Origin: Acidimicrobiaceae bacterium
Lineage (GTDB): Bacteria; Actinomycetota; Acidimicrobiia; Acidimicrobiales; Ilumatobacteraceae
Reading direction: 5' to 3'
Assembly (NCBI GenBank): GCA_003569125.1
Contig: BGOG01000002.1
Span: 1-64,000, forward strand
Length of the DNA stretch: 64,000 bases
The number at the start of each line of letters is the position of its first letter. The stretch's first letter is position 1. The notes below the pieces were generated by a model that worked only from the letters and a program-made list of their open reading frames with translations, made no database searches and was not told the DNA's origin. Made by a program: the position numbers and the translations under genes. Positions 25,725 to 50,658 of this stretch are shown one piece after another.

Positions 25725-28208
25725 ATGGCCGAGGCCATTTCAGTAAGCGGTCCAATTTCAGGGACCGATAGAACACTCACCTTCGAGACGGGCAAACTCG
25801 CTTTGCAGTCGCAAGGAGCAGTAGTAGCAAAAATCGGAAAGACAACAGTGCTGGCAACAGCAAACGCCGCAAAGGGCGTGCGTGACGGCATCGACTTCTT
25901 TCCGTTGACAGTTGACGTCGAAGAGCGCGCATACGCAGCCGGAAAAATCCCTGGTTCGTTTTTTCGCCGCGAAGGTCGACCAAGTCAACAGGCAATTCTC
26001 ACATGTCGATTGACCGATCGTCCGTTGCGACCAGCATTTCCAGACGGTTATCGCAATGAAACTCAAGTTGTGATCACCGTTATTGGTGCGGACCAAACTA
26101 ACCCTCATGACGTGCTGGCAATTAACGCAGCCTCGGCATCTTTCATGATCTCGGGTATTCCGTTCGATGGTCCGATTGGTGCCGTGCGTTTGGCATACAG
26201 CCAAGAAGGCACATGGATCGCACATCCGACTTTTGAAGAAGGCGACGAGTCGACATTTGAATTGGTCGTTGCTGGTCGTGAACTCGACAACGGCGACGTA
26301 GCCGTGATGATGGTTGAAGCAGGCGGAACCGAGAAGAGTTTCTCGTATTATGCAGCCGGCGCACCAAAAGTTAACGAAGAAGTTATTGCAAGCGGATTAG
26401 AAGCCTGCAAGCCGTTCATCAAAGAGTCGATCAAACTTCAGCGACAACTTGTTGCAAGCGTGATTGCAACTCGTGGCGCAATCGAGCCGCTCAAGTTCAC
26501 ACCAGTGCTTGACTACAGCGAAGAATTATTTGCAGCCGTTGAAGCCGCAGCAACCGCAAAGTTGCAACCAGCAATTCGTATCGCGCTCAAGAGCGAGCGC
26601 AACGAGGCGATTGATGCAGCAACAACGGCAACACTTGCTGAACTTGCAGAGAAGTTTCCTGCTCAAGAGAAGCAAATCAAAGAAGCAGTTCGCTCATTAA
26701 CCAAAAAATTAGTGCGCAAGCGCGTCGTCGACGAAGGTATTCGTATCGACGGTCGTGGACCTGCTGATCTTCGCCCGGTTTCGGCTGAAGTTGGTTTGAT
26801 CTCAACTGCACACGGCACGGGGTTGTTTCAACGTGGTGAGACACAAGTTCTCAACGTTCTGACGATGGCAATGCCAAAGATGAACCAGATGATCGACTCG
26901 ATTACCCCTGAGACATCCAAGCGTTACATGCACGACTACAACATGGCTCCATGGGCCAACGGAGAAACTGGTCGAGTCGGCACACCAAAGCGCCGCGAAA
27001 TCGGGCACGGTGCGCTCGCTGAGCGTGCGTTGTTTCCGGTTGTGCCGAGTCAAGAAAAGTTTGCCTACACACTTCGTTTAGTTAGCGAAGTTTTGTCATC
27101 AAACGGTTCGACATCGATGGCGTCGGTTTGTGCATCAAGTCTTTCTTTGATGGATGCTGGCGTGCCGATCATCGCACCAGTCGCAGGTATCGCGATGGGT
27201 TTGATATTTGATCAAGGCAAGTACACGGCGTTGACAGACATTCTCGGTGCAGAAGATGCTTTCGGCGACATGGACTTCAAAGTCGCAGGCACCTCCGATG
27301 CAGTTACTGCATTGCAACTTGACACCAAAATTGAAGGCATCCCGAGTGATGTTTTGGCCAAGGCTTTGCAGCAGGCCAAAGAAGCACGCTTGAAGATTCT
27401 TGATGTGATGAACTCTGCAATCAATGCGCCACGCGCAACGGTTAATGAGAGTGCGCCAAAAATTGTCACGTTCACGATTCCACTCGACAAAGTCGGCGAA
27501 GTAATTGGGCCAAAGGGCAAAGTTATCAACACGATTCAACAAGAGACCGGCGCCGAAATCAACGTGTCCGATGACGGTGCAACCGGCATCATCACAATTG
27601 GTTCGCCAGACAACTCAAAAGTTGAAGACGCCAAGGCTCGCATTTTGGCGATTGTTGATCCACCGACTGCAGAACTCGGTGCGGTTTACACGGGTCGTGT
27701 CGTCAACACAGCAGCGTTCGGCGCGTTTGTGAACATTCTTCCCGGACGAGATGGCCTCGTGCACATTTCGAAACTTGGCAACGGACAACGCGTGGCGCGA
27801 GTCGAAGATGTACTCAACATCGGCGATGAAGTGCAAGTGCGTGTCGATGACATCGACGATCGCGGCAAAGTCAGCCTCAGCCTGATCGGTCCAGATGGCG
27901 AAGTCATCAAGGGCTCGGCTGGTGGTTCGTCAGGTGGATCAAGTGATGGCGGCGATCGAGGCCCGCGCCCAGATCGTGGCGATCGTCCGCGCTCAAATGA
28001 TCGCGGCGGACGAAACGATAGAAACGATCGTCCGCGTTCGAATGATCGTGGTGGTCGTGGTGACCGTAACGATCGTCCGCGTTCGAATGATCGCAACGAT
28101 CGCGGTGGACGTAATGACCGTAACGATCGCACTCGCAGTGCGCCATCAGATGCAGTCAGCGTAAGTTTCGAAGAAGAGTTTGACCGCGACTTGCGAAACG
28201 ATCAATAG
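25725..28208 (+). CDS. pnp: Polyribonucleotide nucleotidyltransferase (PNPase)
   Basis: The phosphorolytic 3'-5' exoribonuclease of the degradosome. The 827-aa protein has two RNase PH domains (first with RTLTFETGKLALQSQGAVV; second with RIDGRGPADLRPVSAEVG, FQRGETQVLNVLT and MGLIFDQGKYTALTDILGAEDAFGDMDFKVAG), an alpha-helical linker, a KH domain (GEVIGPKGKVINTIQQETGAEI, about residue 590) and an S1 domain (GAVYTGRVVNTAAFGAFVNI, about residue 650). After S1 comes a 95-residue Arg/Asp/Asn/Gly-rich tail. A clear AAGGA site precedes ATG 25725. RNase J is also encoded in this window. Confidence 0.98.
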   Translation: MAEAISVSGPISGTDRTLTFETGKLALQSQGAVVAKIGKTTVLATANAAKGVRDGIDFFPLTVDVEERAYAAGKIPGSFFRREGRPSQQAILTCRLTDRPLRPAFPDGYRNETQVVITVIGADQTNPHDVLAINAASASFMISGIPFDGPIGAVRLAYSQEGTWIAHPTFEEGDESTFELVVAGRELDNGDVAVMMVEAGGTEKSFSYYAAGAPKVNEEVIASGLEACKPFIKESIKLQRQLVASVIATRGAIEPLKFTPVLDYSEELFAAVEAAATAKLQPAIRIALKSERNEAIDAATTATLAELAEKFPAQEKQIKEAVRSLTKKLVRKRVVDEGIRIDGRGPADLRPVSAEVGLISTAHGTGLFQRGETQVLNVLTMAMPKMNQMIDSITPETSKRYMHDYNMAPWANGETGRVGTPKRREIGHGALAERALFPVVPSQEKFAYTLRLVSEVLSSNGSTSMASVCASSLSLMDAGVPIIAPVAGIAMGLIFDQGKYTALTDILGAEDAFGDMDFKVAGTSDAVTALQLDTKIEGIPSDVLAKALQQAKEARLKILDVMNSAINAPRATVNESAPKIVTFTIPLDKVGEVIGPKGKVINTIQQETGAEINVSDDGATGIITIGSPDNSKVEDAKARILAIVDPPTAELGAVYTGRVVNTAAFGAFVNILPGRDGLVHISKLGNGQRVARVEDVLNIGDEVQVRVDDIDDRGKVSLSLIGPDGEVIKGSAGGSSGGSSDGGDRGPRPDRGDRPRSNDRGGRNDRNDRPRSNDRGGRGDRNDRPRSNDRNDRGGRNDRNDRTRSAPSDAVSVSFEEEFDRDLRNDQ
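27955..28140 (+). repeat. Degenerate tandem repeats encoding the PNPase R/D/N/G tail
   Basis: Repeated coding units for NDRPRSNDRGGR-like peptides at irregular 12- to 30-bp spacing. The repeats are similar in DNA as well as protein, indicating expansion by slippage. An acidic end (FEEEFDRDLRNDQ) follows. Confidence 0.8.
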
Positions 28209-28220
28209 GCTTCGGCTGAG

Positions 28221-28988
28221 ATGACAATTCGCGTCGGTGTTATTGGTGCTGCGGGGCGGATGGGTCTAACGGTCTGCGCCGCAATCGCAGCCGACAAAAA
28301 TCTAGAACTGGTTGCGGCAGTTGATTCTGCCGCTTCTGGTTCAGTTGTTGAAGGCTTAACAATTGCCAAAGATCTGCGGGCGTTAGCCGATGCAAAAGTC
28401 GAAGTTGCTGTCGACTTCACCGTCGCTGCCGCTTCGCGAATTAACTTGCCTTGGTTAGCAATGCACAATGTTCATGCAGTTGTTGGCACGACTGGTTTTA
28501 CCGATGCAGATATTGCAGAGTTTAAGAAGATGTTTACATCTAGCAACTGCATCGTTGCGCCGAACTTTGCTATCGGCGCAGTATTAATGATGCGCTTTGC
28601 CGAAATTGCTGCGCCATTTTTCGACACGGCCGAGATAATAGAAATTCATCACGATGGCAAAGCAGATTCGCCGTCCGGCACGGCGATCGCAACTGCCAAT
28701 CGCATTGCTGCGGCCAGCAGTACTTGGGCTAAAGATCCAACAACGCACGAAGCGATTGCTGGTGCACGAGGTGCAAAATCGCCGGCCGGCATACCGATTC
28801 ATGCAGTTCGCATGCGCGGCGTTGTTGCCAATCAAGAGGTCGTATTAGGCACGCAAGGTCAAACACTCACAATTCGCCACGACACGATCGATCGCGCAAG
28901 TTTCATGCCCGGCGTTGTATTGGCGTGCAAAAAAATTGCCGAGCACAAGGGCTTCACCCTCGGCCTCGACAAATTTTTGGGAATTTAA
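28221..28988 (+). CDS. dapB: 4-hydroxy-tetrahydrodipicolinate reductase
   Basis: Second dedicated step of lysine/diaminopimelate synthesis. The 255-aa enzyme has the nucleotide-binding motif VGVIGAAGRMG, the substrate loop VVGTTGF, the APNFAIGA segment, the catalytic EIIEIHHDGKADSPSGTA motif and the HAVRMRGVVANQEVVLG strand. It follows pnp by 12 nt and is probably cotranscribed. dapA lies 7 kb away in the same orientation. Confidence 0.97.
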   Translation: MTIRVGVIGAAGRMGLTVCAAIAADKNLELVAAVDSAASGSVVEGLTIAKDLRALADAKVEVAVDFTVAAASRINLPWLAMHNVHAVVGTTGFTDADIAEFKKMFTSSNCIVAPNFAIGAVLMMRFAEIAAPFFDTAEIIEIHHDGKADSPSGTAIATANRIAAASSTWAKDPTTHEAIAGARGAKSPAGIPIHAVRMRGVVANQEVVLGTQGQTLTIRHDTIDRASFMPGVVLACKKIAEHKGFTLGLDKFLGI

Positions 28989-29013: not shown

Positions 29014-29631
29014 TTAACGCAACGAGTTGATCGCTGCGTCGTAGTTTGGCTCGTTGGCGATTTCGCTGACGAGTTCTGTGTGCAGCACCTTGCCCTTTTC
29101 ATCGGCGACGACGACTGCGCGCGCCAAAACACCCTTGAGCACACCGCTCATGAGATTGACGCCGAATGCCACACCAAAATTTGATCTGAAAGACGAAGCG
29201 GTTTTGACATTGCTCAGACCTTCCGTGCCGCAGAATCGACCTTGGGCGAATGGCAAGTCGGCAGACACGCAGTAAACATCTGTATTTTGCAGCGATGATG
29301 CAAGTTCGTTGAACTTGCGAGTGCTCGTCGCACAAGTCGGCGTGTCGATGCTTGGAAAGATGTTGAAGATCACGCGTTTGCCGGCGATGTCTTTGTTGCT
29401 GATGTCTTGCAGTGCGCTAGTAGTAAGCGAGAACTTCGGCAAAGACTTGCCAGTTGCTGGCAATTTGCCGCTTACAGAAACTGCATTGCCACCGAGAGTC
29501 ACAGTTGCACCAGGCTTCATCGTTGATTTTTTCGTTGATTTTTTCTTGCTCGACTTAACCGCCTTTTTTGAAGCGATCTTCTTTTTTGCGCCGGTTTTTT
29601 TCGCTGATTTTTGTTTCTTCTTTGATGCCAT
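29014..29631 (-). CDS. tpx: Thiol peroxidase with a lysine-rich N-terminal tail
   Basis: A peroxiredoxin of the Tpx class. The core has GKSLPKFSLTTSALQDIS, the peroxidatic Cys in FPSIDTPTCATSTRKFNE, and the resolving Cys in ADLPFAQGRFCGTEGL. Family length is about 165 aa; this protein is 205 aa because residues 2-40 form an Ala/Lys/Ser tail (ASKKKQKSAKKTGAKKKIAS and onward, KSSKKKSTKKS) resembling histone H1-like C-termini. Start ATG 29631 has AAGGAG 7 nt upstream. The tail could bind DNA, RNA or polyphosphate; this is inference. Confidence 0.92.
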   Translation of the reverse strand: MASKKKQKSAKKTGAKKKIASKKAVKSSKKKSTKKSTMKPGATVTLGGNAVSVSGKLPATGKSLPKFSLTTSALQDISNKDIAGKRVIFNIFPSIDTPTCATSTRKFNELASSLQNTDVYCVSADLPFAQGRFCGTEGLSNVKTASSFRSNFGVAFGVNLMSGVLKGVLARAVVVADEKGKVLHTELVSEIANEPNYDAAINSLR

Positions 29632-29654
29632 GAAGTTCTCCTTGTTCAATTTTT

Positions 29655-30245
29655 CTAGTTAGATTTTGGTCGACCCTTGCGGGCTGATTGTATAGATGAT
29701 GCTACGAATAATCCGCCCACAACCCACCACTGATAGCGCTCAATGTATCCCAAAAAGTCTTTGATCTGATCTTCGAATAATTTTCCGCCGCGCCACAGTA
29801 AAGCGAGTTTTATCAAGATACCGATAATCAACAACGGCACAAACTTTTGCGGCGCCATGCGTCGATGTCCTAGAAGCAGACAGACGATATTGCTGCCTGG
29901 CATGAGTACCAACATCACCGAGCCGGCCTTGTCGACGGCTCGTTCTGTCCATTTATATATCGAAGGAAGTTCACCCAAGTTGCCCTCGACCCAGCCAAGA
30001 GCCTTGGTTCCGTACCAACGGCCGACTAGATAAAGCGCGATGCCCGCGATAAGCACTCGTATGAAACCAATAGTCAGGTAACTGGTCAAATCGATGTAGG
30101 GCACAGAGCCAAATAAATTGCGGTTTCGCGAGCTCAGCAAAAGCACAAGCCGTGGGCGTTCATCGACCAATGCCGGGCCAATGTTGCTACCGATTGTGCC
30201 GATCACGAACAACATGGTTGTGATCATCAGAACTGCCTTGCGCAT
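29655..30245 (-). CDS. DedA/VTT-like integral membrane protein
   Basis: A 196-aa protein with four or five hydrophobic helices (LMITTMLFVIGTIGSNIGPAL, IGFIRVLIAGIALYLVGRWYG, AGSVMLVLMPGSNIVCLLLG, FVPLLIIGILIKLALLW, WWVVGGLFVASS). The pattern YLVGRWYG...PGSN...LLLGHRRM.PQKF resembles the VTT/DedA fold, whose members flip lipids or support membrane homeostasis, but similarity is weak. TAGCCT lies 7 nt before ATG 30245. Confidence 0.6.
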   Translation of the reverse strand: MRKAVLMITTMLFVIGTIGSNIGPALVDERPRLVLLLSSRNRNLFGSVPYIDLTSYLTIGFIRVLIAGIALYLVGRWYGTKALGWVEGNLGELPSIYKWTERAVDKAGSVMLVLMPGSNIVCLLLGHRRMAPQKFVPLLIIGILIKLALLWRGGKLFEDQIKDFLGYIERYQWWVVGGLFVASSIQSARKGRPKSN

Positions 30246-38701: not shown

Positions 38702-41107
38702 GTGGCAAAAGCGGCGAAATCTAAATCTGCCCGGTCTAAATCTGCGTCATCTAAATCTGGGTCGTCTGGGGCTAAACGAAAATCACCGCGCTCATCGTCT
38801 CATTTGAGCACCTATCGAGAACACGACCAAGATGACGACCCAGTGAAATATCGATACAGGTCGGACGATCCGTTGTTCGGTGGTTTGTTTGAAGGTCGTT
38901 CACATGAGTTTGGTGGCCTAGGTTTGATTGCGCTCGGGGTTTTGCTCGTTTTGTCTCTCTACTTAGAGTCGGCGGGGTTATTCGGTAGAGCATTAGACAG
39001 CACCCTTTTATTTTTGGTTGGCGGCGGAAGGTATTTTTTGCCAGCCCTAAGTTTTGGTCTTGGAATCGCTGTTGCAATTCGAAAAGATTGGCAATATCGA
39101 TCTCGTAACGCAATTGGCTGGGCGTTATTTTCAGGGGCGCTACTCGGTTTCACAAATATTTACTCCGGCGACACTGCAAAAAATCCTGCTGGATGGATCG
39201 GGTGGCTCTTTAGCGAACCAATCACGAGCTCATTTTCTGATACGGGGGCAACCGCACTGTTGGCGATGTTGTTGGTCGGTTCAGTGATGCTAATCACCGG
39301 CAAATCTGTTCCGCAGTTATGCATCTTGATTTGGAGATTCGTTGTCGGGGCAAACACTTATGTCGCGCAAAAAAGCAGAGTCCAACCAGACGCAATCGAA
39401 GTTGACACCGACCAGGATGATTTTGACGGAGAACCGGCGCAATTATTTGATTTTGAGCTGGATCCGGACAATCAAAATGCAGACGACGAAGATGTTTTAG
39501 AAACAGAATTTGTCGAAGATCAACCAAAAACCAAACGCGGGCGCAAACGGCGCGAGCGAGCAAAAGAAAAACTAAAACCAGTCAAGGGCGAGTCACAGGA
39601 GATTCCGCTCGGGCCGTCTGGGCAGCCGAGTGTTTGGACACTTCCTGAAATTGAGTCCCTGTCTTTGACGAGCAACAAGAAAGCGAACGAGCAAACAATT
39701 CGAGATCGTGGCGATCAACTAGTTGCAGCACTGGCATCGCATGGTGTCGAGACCGTGCTCGTCGGTTACACCCGGGGGCCAACCGTTACTCGCTACGAAC
39801 TTTCACTCGGCGACGGTGTCAAAGTTGCCAAAGTTACTTCTTTGTCTCGCGACATCGCGTACACGATGGCGGCAACAGATGTGCGAATTCTTGCACCGAT
39901 ACCAGGCCGTTCGGCAATTGGTATCGAAGTGCCGAATGAACTTCGCGAACTTGTCTCAATCGGAGATCTCTTGGTTTCGCAAGAGGCACGCACGGCAAAT
40001 CATCCGCTTGATGTTGCGGTCGGCAAAGATATTTCGGGCCGCTCGGTTTTCTTGAATATTTCTACGACGCCCCACTTGTTGATCGCCGGTGCCACGGGTG
40101 CAGGTAAATCGAGTGCGATCAATTGCATCATCACATCTGTATTGATGCGTGCGACGCCTGATCAGGTCAAGATGATCCTTATCGATCCAAAACAAGTCGA
40201 GATGGGGCAATACGCACGCTTGCCACACTTGTTGACTGCTCCGGTTACGAATCCGAAAAAAGCCGCCAACGCACTTGGTTGGGCGGTAAAAGAAATGGAG
40301 CGTAGATACGACGTTCTTGTTGAAGCTGGTTTCCGTGATATTGCCGGTTATAACGCCGCGTACGATCGTGGAGAAATGACGGTTGAGTCAGGTCAACCCG
40401 CGGATAAAAAGTTTGAGCGAATTCCGTATGTATTGATCGTTGTCGATGAGTTGAACGATTTGATGATGGTTGCCGCACGAGACGTAGAAGATTGCATCAC
40501 GCGAATCGCCCAAAAAGCACGCGCGGTAGGTATCCACTTAATAGTCGCAACACAACGGCCGAGCGTGAACGTAATAACCGGCGTGATCAAAGCAAATATT
40601 CCGGCGCGCATGGCATTCGCTGTTTCAAGTCTCACCGATAGTCGAGTAATTTTGGATCAACCTGGTGCGGAGAAACTGATTGGAATGGGCGACATGTTGA
40701 TGTTGCCGGGTAATACTTCTGTTTCGCAACGCCTGCAGTCTGCATGGGTCAGTGAAAGTGAAGTGAAAAAAGTCGTGGGTCACTGGCGACGACAAGCGCC
40801 AGAGGTCGTCTATGTATCTGGTGTCGAAGGTGAAGCAAATGACAAAAGTAGCGGTTCGGTATTCGGCGGAAGCAGTGGCGATGAAGGCGATGATGAATTG
40901 ATGCGTCAAGCGATGGAGTTGGTTGTTCGTACGCAACAAGGCAGCACTTCGATGTTGCAGCGCAAACTCAAAGTTGGTTTCGCTCGTGCCGGGCGTTTGA
41001 TGGACATGCTTGAGCAACGTGGTGTAGTCGCAGCAAGTGAAGGCTCAAGACCTCGCGAAGTTTTGATGACCGTCGAAGAACTAGAACTGATTCAAAAGGC
41101 GAGTTAG
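38702..41107 (+). CDS. ftsK: DNA translocase FtsK
   Basis: Moves chromosome ends through the closing division septum. The 801-aa protein starts with a basic Lys/Ser repeat (KSKSARSKSASSKSGSS), has about four transmembrane helices (residues 75-200), an acidic linker, the alpha/beta motor with Walker A GATGAGKSSAIN (about residue 462), Walker B VLIVVDELNDLMM and ATQRPSVNVITGVIKANIPAR, and a C-terminal gamma winged helix (STSMLQRKLKVGFARAGRLMDMLE). Start GTG 38702 is leaderless by the -10 rule. A short 17-bp repeat underlies the N-terminal Lys/Ser segment. Confidence 0.97.
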   Translation: MAKAAKSKSARSKSASSKSGSSGAKRKSPRSSSHLSTYREHDQDDDPVKYRYRSDDPLFGGLFEGRSHEFGGLGLIALGVLLVLSLYLESAGLFGRALDSTLLFLVGGGRYFLPALSFGLGIAVAIRKDWQYRSRNAIGWALFSGALLGFTNIYSGDTAKNPAGWIGWLFSEPITSSFSDTGATALLAMLLVGSVMLITGKSVPQLCILIWRFVVGANTYVAQKSRVQPDAIEVDTDQDDFDGEPAQLFDFELDPDNQNADDEDVLETEFVEDQPKTKRGRKRRERAKEKLKPVKGESQEIPLGPSGQPSVWTLPEIESLSLTSNKKANEQTIRDRGDQLVAALASHGVETVLVGYTRGPTVTRYELSLGDGVKVAKVTSLSRDIAYTMAATDVRILAPIPGRSAIGIEVPNELRELVSIGDLLVSQEARTANHPLDVAVGKDISGRSVFLNISTTPHLLIAGATGAGKSSAINCIITSVLMRATPDQVKMILIDPKQVEMGQYARLPHLLTAPVTNPKKAANALGWAVKEMERRYDVLVEAGFRDIAGYNAAYDRGEMTVESGQPADKKFERIPYVLIVVDELNDLMMVAARDVEDCITRIAQKARAVGIHLIVATQRPSVNVITGVIKANIPARMAFAVSSLTDSRVILDQPGAEKLIGMGDMLMLPGNTSVSQRLQSAWVSESEVKKVVGHWRRQAPEVVYVSGVEGEANDKSSGSVFGGSSGDEGDDELMRQAMELVVRTQQGSTSMLQRKLKVGFARAGRLMDMLEQRGVVAASEGSRPREVLMTVEELELIQKAS

Positions 41108-50261: not shown

Positions 50262-50282
50262 CGTGCACATCTTTTAAAAACA

Positions 50283-50658
50283 GTGAGTCGGTCGATAAGC
50301 GGGATTTTGTAGTTTCAACAGTTTCCTGTCGATACTGACGACCATCCATCTATGCGGCCTACCCGAGGGTTGCTCGAAAGCAAACGGACAGTTCATGCCC
50401 TCTGCATGGCCTTGCTTCAAGTGACGTACCAAGCCGCAACTGTTGCCAACTGCGCTGGTGCGCTCTTACCGCACCGTTTCATCCTTACCTGTGATAAAAA
50501 TCTTACGAAAATCATCCATCGGCGGTTTATTTTCTGTTGCACGTAATATCAGGTCGCCCCGACCTGGCTTTCGCCAGCACTTTGTCCTGCGAAGTCCCGA
50601 CTTTCCTCAATGTTGCGATGCAAGCACCACATCACTGCGGTCGTCTGACCGACTCACC
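50283..50658 (-). ncRNA. rnpB: RNase P RNA, bacterial type A
   Basis: Catalytic RNA that trims tRNA 5' ends. On the minus strand the 5' end GTGAGTCGGTC pairs with the 3' end GACCGACTCAC (P1). The universally conserved GAGGAAAGTCGGGACTTC segment (P2-P3-P4 start) follows, then CAGGACAAAGTGCTGGCGAAAGCC. The 3' half has ACAGGAAACTGTTGAAACTACA and the closing P1 strand, then TTTTTAAAAG. Length 376 nt is normal. Short open frames within it are spurious. This accounts for the 423-bp protein-free gap. Confidence 0.96.

Follow-up and report, generated by a model that had tools for sequence, protein, structure and literature searches.

A lysine-rich N-terminal tail on the thiol peroxidase of one clade of uncultured aquatic actinobacteria and its putative role as a nucleic-acid tether

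The tpx locus and its product

The window (the whole stretch of 64,000 nucleotides analysed here) belongs to a host assembly of 1.78 Mb in 40 contigs, estimated as 78% complete. Open reading frame and profile matches identified a thiol peroxidase gene (tpx, 29631..29014, minus strand) whose 205-amino acid frame opened at an ATG at 29631, with a ribosome-binding site, AAGGAG (29638..29643, minus strand), 6 nt before it. The product comprised a lysine-rich tail (residues 1-37; 29521..29631, minus strand) and a Tpx core running from an internal methionine, Met38 (29014..29520, minus strand). Lysine made up 17 of the 37 tail residues, arginine, aspartate and glutamate were absent, and the tail was predicted to be disordered, residues 1-37 scoring pLDDT <50 in an AlphaFold2 model. 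A preliminary description of this DNA had reported about 40 residues of Lys/Ala/Ser ahead of a normal Tpx core and a firm start with AAGGAG 7 nt upstream; tail, core and start all held, with small corrections to the spacing and to the tail, which has 37 residues.

Residues 42-204 scored 219.7 bits with the NCBIfam thiol peroxidase profile NF001808, whose cut-off is 123, and the core also matched Pfam Redoxin (105 bits). Its 10-residue blocks were mostly modelled at pLDDT 83-97, with one at 69, and the best PDB match of the predicted fold was itself a Tpx (TMt 0.93, E 6e-23). Cys100 (29332..29334, minus strand), within a PSIDTPTC motif, and Cys134 (29230..29232, minus strand) were invariant in 44 aligned relatives; by position we take them to be the peroxidatic and resolving cysteines, respectively, carrying these roles over from E. 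coli Tpx. Solved Tpx (PDB 6udg, 2xpd, 1qxh, 4je1) thus share with the window protein the whole core, both cysteines and the predicted fold, core identity in the fold alignment being 51-58% for the 20 that matched best. The 24 solved sequences that were matched all aligned from residue 42 or later, leaving the tail uncovered. Judged from profiles and the model, the core is that of a normal atypical 2-Cys thiol peroxidase, with predicted thioredoxin-dependent peroxidase activity.

A VTT-like membrane protein gene (29655..30245, minus strand; Pfam 26.4 bits, below the cut-off of 33.9) was situated 23 nt upstream of tpx, and dapB (28221..28988, plus strand), identified by profile matches, was its convergent downstream neighbour. 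Elsewhere in the window we noted an FtsK with a short basic Lys/Ser/Ala N terminus (38702-41107, plus strand), a protein that we take to be polynucleotide phosphorylase-like with an Arg/Gly/Asp/Asn-rich repeat tail (25725-28208, plus strand), and a class A RNase P RNA (50280-50656, minus strand).

Distribution of the tail

A search of 221 genomes of the family returned 118 with a Tpx match at E <=1e-40, and 81 of these were inspected at the 5' end. In the host genus (g1), 21 genomes matched Tpx and all 19 with a readable 5' end were tailed, the other two being cut by contig ends. Its sister genus (g5) had 15 matches, and the tail was found in 12 of 12 readable genes; one of the others was cut by a contig end with tail residues still visible (L197), one was masked by a run of N (L222) and one was split (G199, see below). 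All 31 readable Tpx genes of the two genera were therefore tailed. In each, a sequence resembling a ribosome site preceded the ATG of the tail, which was also where the best ribosome-site match lay.

Beyond these two genera the tail was not seen. In the next genus (g47) a Lys-rich extension was lacking in 26 of 26 matching genomes, and translation there likely starts at the core methionine (MAQTSFGGT and similar), some loci having further in-frame start codons upstream. The extension was likewise lacking in seven of eight g9 matches and in 12 matches from other genera; in one g9 locus (L254) a ribosome-site match stood before an upstream ATG, which led into sequence that was not Lys-rich. Scanning of named genomes, in which 80 of 422 loci were kept, gave 19 tailed loci (largely of the same species as the family set) and four truncated at contig ends; the other 57, which came from many phyla, showed no Lys-rich extension. 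An even draw of 396 genomes across the phylum yielded 21 Tpx matches, all read, of which only the host genome (G000, g1) and G032 (g5) were tailed. The preliminary description had proposed looking for the tail in homologues: it was present, with the best start, in every readable orthologue of the two sister genera, and missing as a Lys-rich extension from g47 and from distant homologues. Within the genomes searched, Lys-tailed Tpx is, on gene reading, restricted to one clade of uncultured aquatic actinobacteria.

Composition of the tail and selection on it

Thirty-one distinct tails were pooled, counted from after the initial methionine up to the residue preceding ATVTLGG, with which the core begins; by this measure the window tail has 41 residues. 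They ranged in length from 24 to 54 and comprised 1144 residues: 49.5% Lys, 16.7% Ala, 10.2% Ser, 8.0% Val, 6.7% Thr and no Asp or Glu, with zero to two residues of F, I, L, M, W or Y per tail. Composition was thus kept while sequence and length drifted, and the histone-like lysine composition described earlier is conserved throughout the clade. At the 4.4% Lys of the sampled proteome, and treating residues as independent, at least 18 Lys in 38 residues would arise by chance at about 5e-15 per stretch of that size. Both AAA and AAG were used for lysine, and one species had no AAA and 18 AAG, so it is the protein, not the DNA, that is kept. Ten close, disjoint pairs gave a pN/pS of 0.07-0.60 for the tail and a dN/dS of 0-0.075 for the core; the tail ratios are rough owing to gappy alignments, and the species are related, so that counts are not independent events. 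These ratios indicate that selection acts on the tail as protein, more loosely than on the core.

Origin of the tail at an existing locus

Wherever flanks were long enough, the order VTT-tpx-dapB was common to g1, g5 and g47, and to several further genera without the tail. dapB was not detected in the available stretch of two g47 or other loci (e.g. L239); a g9 locus with long flanks (L022) had VTT upstream and no dapB found, and neither gene was found in six shorter g9 stretches. In a FastTree phylogeny of the three proteins from 77 loci (rooted on one untailed locus, L208, with local supports only), 27 g47 loci from 26 genomes formed a clade (support 0.998) that was joined to the tailed clade (0.99). 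G199 was the first branch inside the latter (0.944), the other 30 loci, including the unread L222, forming a clade (0.993). The tree omits L020, L021, L023 and L027-L030, removed by name, and L223 and L224, whose cores are short; two genomes enter it twice (L202/L247 and L203/L258). Since untailed g47 has the same neighbours, the simplest account is a single addition of the tail to a locus already present in the ancestor of g1 and g5, with retention thereafter.

G199 was exceptional in that its Lys-rich stretch was a separate, Lys/Ala-rich 109-aa ORF (L225 485-814) preceded by AAGGAGG and overlapping the Tpx core, which started at a GTG at 808 in another frame. Codon bias trained on named genes assigned coding to the tail frame up to about 720 and to the core frame from about 811, with no clear winner between. 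This arrangement, in one genome, may represent an ancestral two-gene stage on the way to fusion, a split that came later, or an error of the assembly. More speculatively, and as a scenario we consider doubtful, a free-standing histone H1-like gene may have been inserted immediately ahead of tpx, with fusion of the two genes following, G199 preserving the overlapping two-gene stage before fusion. A soluble peroxidase would thereby have become a nucleoid-resident, lineage-specific nucleoid protein that couples the removal of peroxides to the chromosome, within a broader acquisition of Lys tails in this clade that also included GyrA.

Similar tails on other proteins

We took a census of 862 kb of the host assembly (48.5% of the genome), in which a longest-ORF caller gave 826 ORFs of at least 100 aa. 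Only four had at least 14 Lys in 38 residues: a DksA/YteA-like protein (20), Tpx (18), GyrA (15) and CarD (14); a Ser/Thr kinase followed with 11. On this sample of the genome, a tail typical of the whole proteome was rejected. The 372-aa DksA/YteA-like protein (L158 10382-11500; G000 contig C2) carries its 20 Lys in Glu-containing LELKKK repeats, has 16 in its own N-terminal tail, and its C-terminal part matched below curated cut-offs. Just upstream of it a Lys-rich, H1-like reading was seen by eye, apparently frame-broken near a run of A. GyrA (L175 7304-9904; contig C1; 1098 bits against 902) is extended at its N terminus by some 60 residues rich in Lys, and CarD (L191 3477-3968; contig C12; CarD_C 30.4 against 23.1), whose reading frame is broken in this assembly, has a Lys/Ala/Pro C-terminal tail. 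Searches of the host genome with an exact motif for the start, or with the amino acid sequence of the tail, recovered only tpx itself; such searches miss the Lys-rich proteins that the census found.

The GyrA tail followed the distribution of the Tpx tail among the genomes compared. A basic N-terminal tail was found on GyrA in 3 of 3 g1 and 4 of 4 g5 genomes, some of these tails being short or containing acidic residues, with a weakly basic start in the one g9 genome. It was absent from the four g47, one g38 and one g39 genomes examined, and the GyrA search of G033 gave no match at threshold.

The Lys-rich ORF of G199, used as a query against seven genomes of the family, had 27 matches, most of them weak. 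Of 11 that were opened, two proved to be Tpx tails, L278 contained no frame rich in Lys, and the remaining eight were assigned by a Pfam scan. Above cut-offs these comprised CarD (G199), topoisomerase I (G198 and G147), translation initiation factor IF2 (G198), Ku (G147; L285 610-1644), an NYN-RNase plus S1 protein (G176; L281 502-1728) and a WYL/PafC-type regulator (G199; L282 1549-3255), the last of the eight being a short Lys-rich protein (G199) with no family match. Three of these eight tails weakly matched the histone H1-like family HC2 below cut-off; the Tpx tail alone and the G199 Lys-rich ORF had no Pfam family at E up to 1. As TopA, Ku and S1-protein tails were found in genera with untailed Tpx (g39 and g47), the use of such tails on nucleic-acid proteins predates the Tpx tail. 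Among the proteins examined, and by family assignment from their sequences, no small metabolic enzyme other than Tpx has a tail of this style, which is otherwise carried by proteins of DNA, transcription or translation.

Comparison with Dps and other basic tails

Dps may work in a comparable way: it too protects against oxidants and has a basic extension at its N terminus that is flexible, as the Tpx tail is predicted to be. It has a ferritin-type fold, whereas the window protein is a peroxiredoxin, matching Pfam Redoxin and AhpC-TSA only and no ferritin-like domain. That the tailed Tpx replaces Dps was considered and rejected: Dps was found in none of the 26 g47 genomes with untailed Tpx (a weak hit in G171 was below cut-off), and G205 (g5) has both proteins, so absence of Dps does not explain the tail. 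Strong ferritin/Dps hits (E <1e-12) were confined in g1 to G021, which has no Tpx match, and in g5 to G205; weak hits were found in G019 (g1) and in G192, G195, G200 and G201 (g5). In G021 the Dps-type gene lay directly after a KatG-type peroxidase gene (L147). KatG-type peroxidase (PF00141) was encoded by 11 of 28 g1 genomes and was absent from the host genome.

The Lys/Ala-rich repeats of the tail also resemble those of actinobacterial TopA, HU and histone H1-like tails, and the TopA repeats are themselves said to resemble histone H1 (PMC7398561). Those tails sit on proteins that already handle DNA; the one in the window sits on a peroxidase. The whole tailed Tpx matched neither an HU domain nor a Pfam histone-like family. 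Among the open-access papers covered through listings and abstracts, none described a tail of this kind on Tpx or on any other peroxiredoxin. The Tpx family and this type of Lys tail are each already known; their combination is new as far as these searches show, and occurs in one clade in the genomes searched.

A putative nucleic-acid tether and its alternatives

As a whole, the tail is best explained as tethering Tpx to nucleic acid, most likely the nucleoid, a reading to which we assign a probability of roughly 0.6. We infer a tether because similar tails are shared with GyrA, CarD, the DksA-like protein and others, and from the literature on Lys-rich regions, TopA and Dps. DNA-binding proteins are described as enriched for Lys-rich low-complexity regions, with RNA binding by such regions reported too (PMC6821194), TopA is kept on DNA by its Lys repeats (PMC7398561), and removal of the 18 N-terminal residues of E. 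coli Dps, including three Lys, abolishes DNA binding (PMC13319912). That the tail binds nucleic acid is a claim we hold with good confidence; that nucleoid DNA is its main target also seems probable, if less securely so. The preliminary description had likewise held that such tails usually bind nucleic acid and that a peroxidase tethered to the nucleoid or to RNA could protect it locally from peroxides, and the GyrA, CarD and DksA-like tails and the separate Lys-rich ORF of G199 favour tethering by comparison.

The same tail could instead bind RNA or ribosomes and place Tpx in the translating zone, as the reported RNA binding of Lys-rich regions would allow and as the tails on IF2 and on the NYN-RNase plus S1 protein of the family would suggest. 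We consider this unlikely, as the closest tails in the host genome are on GyrA, CarD and the DksA-like protein, and among the 14 genomes compared the GyrA tail occurs in the same two genera as the Tpx tail. GyrA, CarD and DksA-like proteins act on DNA or RNA polymerase. A slightly lower likelihood attaches to a tail that anchors the enzyme to polyphosphate or to anionic lipid of the membrane, where it would act on lipid hydroperoxides. E. coli Tpx prefers alkyl and other organic hydroperoxides, which fits lipid more than DNA and somewhat weakens the DNA reading; short polybasic stretches can bind acidic lipids, and a VTT-like membrane protein is encoded upstream. The near absence of F, I, L, M, W and Y from the tails leaves no hydrophobic anchor, however, and the VTT neighbour is also present in untailed genera.

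It is also quite improbable that the tail has no binding role, having arisen either as a low-complexity expansion of A-rich DNA under no or almost no selection, or through an effect of 5' codons on translation. Its variable length, drifting sequence and a pN/pS above that of the core would be expected of such an expansion, but the tail was never lost in 31 readable genes, acquired no acidic residue in 1144, mixes AAA with AAG and had a pN/pS below 1 in all 10 pairs. Nor is it typical of the other peroxiredoxin of these genomes, as 11 of 13 second peroxiredoxin hits in g1 lay in 151-153-aa frames with no room for a tail. Least probable by far is a mis-called start with Tpx beginning at Met38, which could be argued from the presence of that methionine in the window species and the lack of a Lys-rich extension in g47. 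Met38 has no ribosome-site match ahead of it, and the other tailed genes read had no ATG within the tail or at the junction, the ribosome-site match being best ahead of the ATG of the tail; we rejected a mis-called start on these grounds. A few other tailed genes had an internal GTG, some with a ribosome-site match of only 4 nt, and in the window species a minor core-only product from Met38 may be made.

Returning to the nucleoid tether, we postulate that a flexible, purely cationic tail of histone H1 type was added to an atypical 2-Cys Tpx in the ancestor of two sister genera, and that it would bind nucleic acid, with chromosomal DNA the likeliest partner, irrespective of sequence. If the enzyme assembles as a dimer like E. 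coli Tpx, each would sit on the nucleoid with two tails, and would there remove peroxides beside the DNA and the enzymes bound to it. Should the tail bind DNA, these uncultured aquatic actinobacteria would have a peroxiredoxin tethered to the bacterial chromosome, and with it peroxide protection of DNA without the ferritin chemistry of Dps. With tailed and untailed orthologues, and one genome in which the parts lie in separate frames, the family would offer a testable case of the relocation of an enzyme by a cationic tether.
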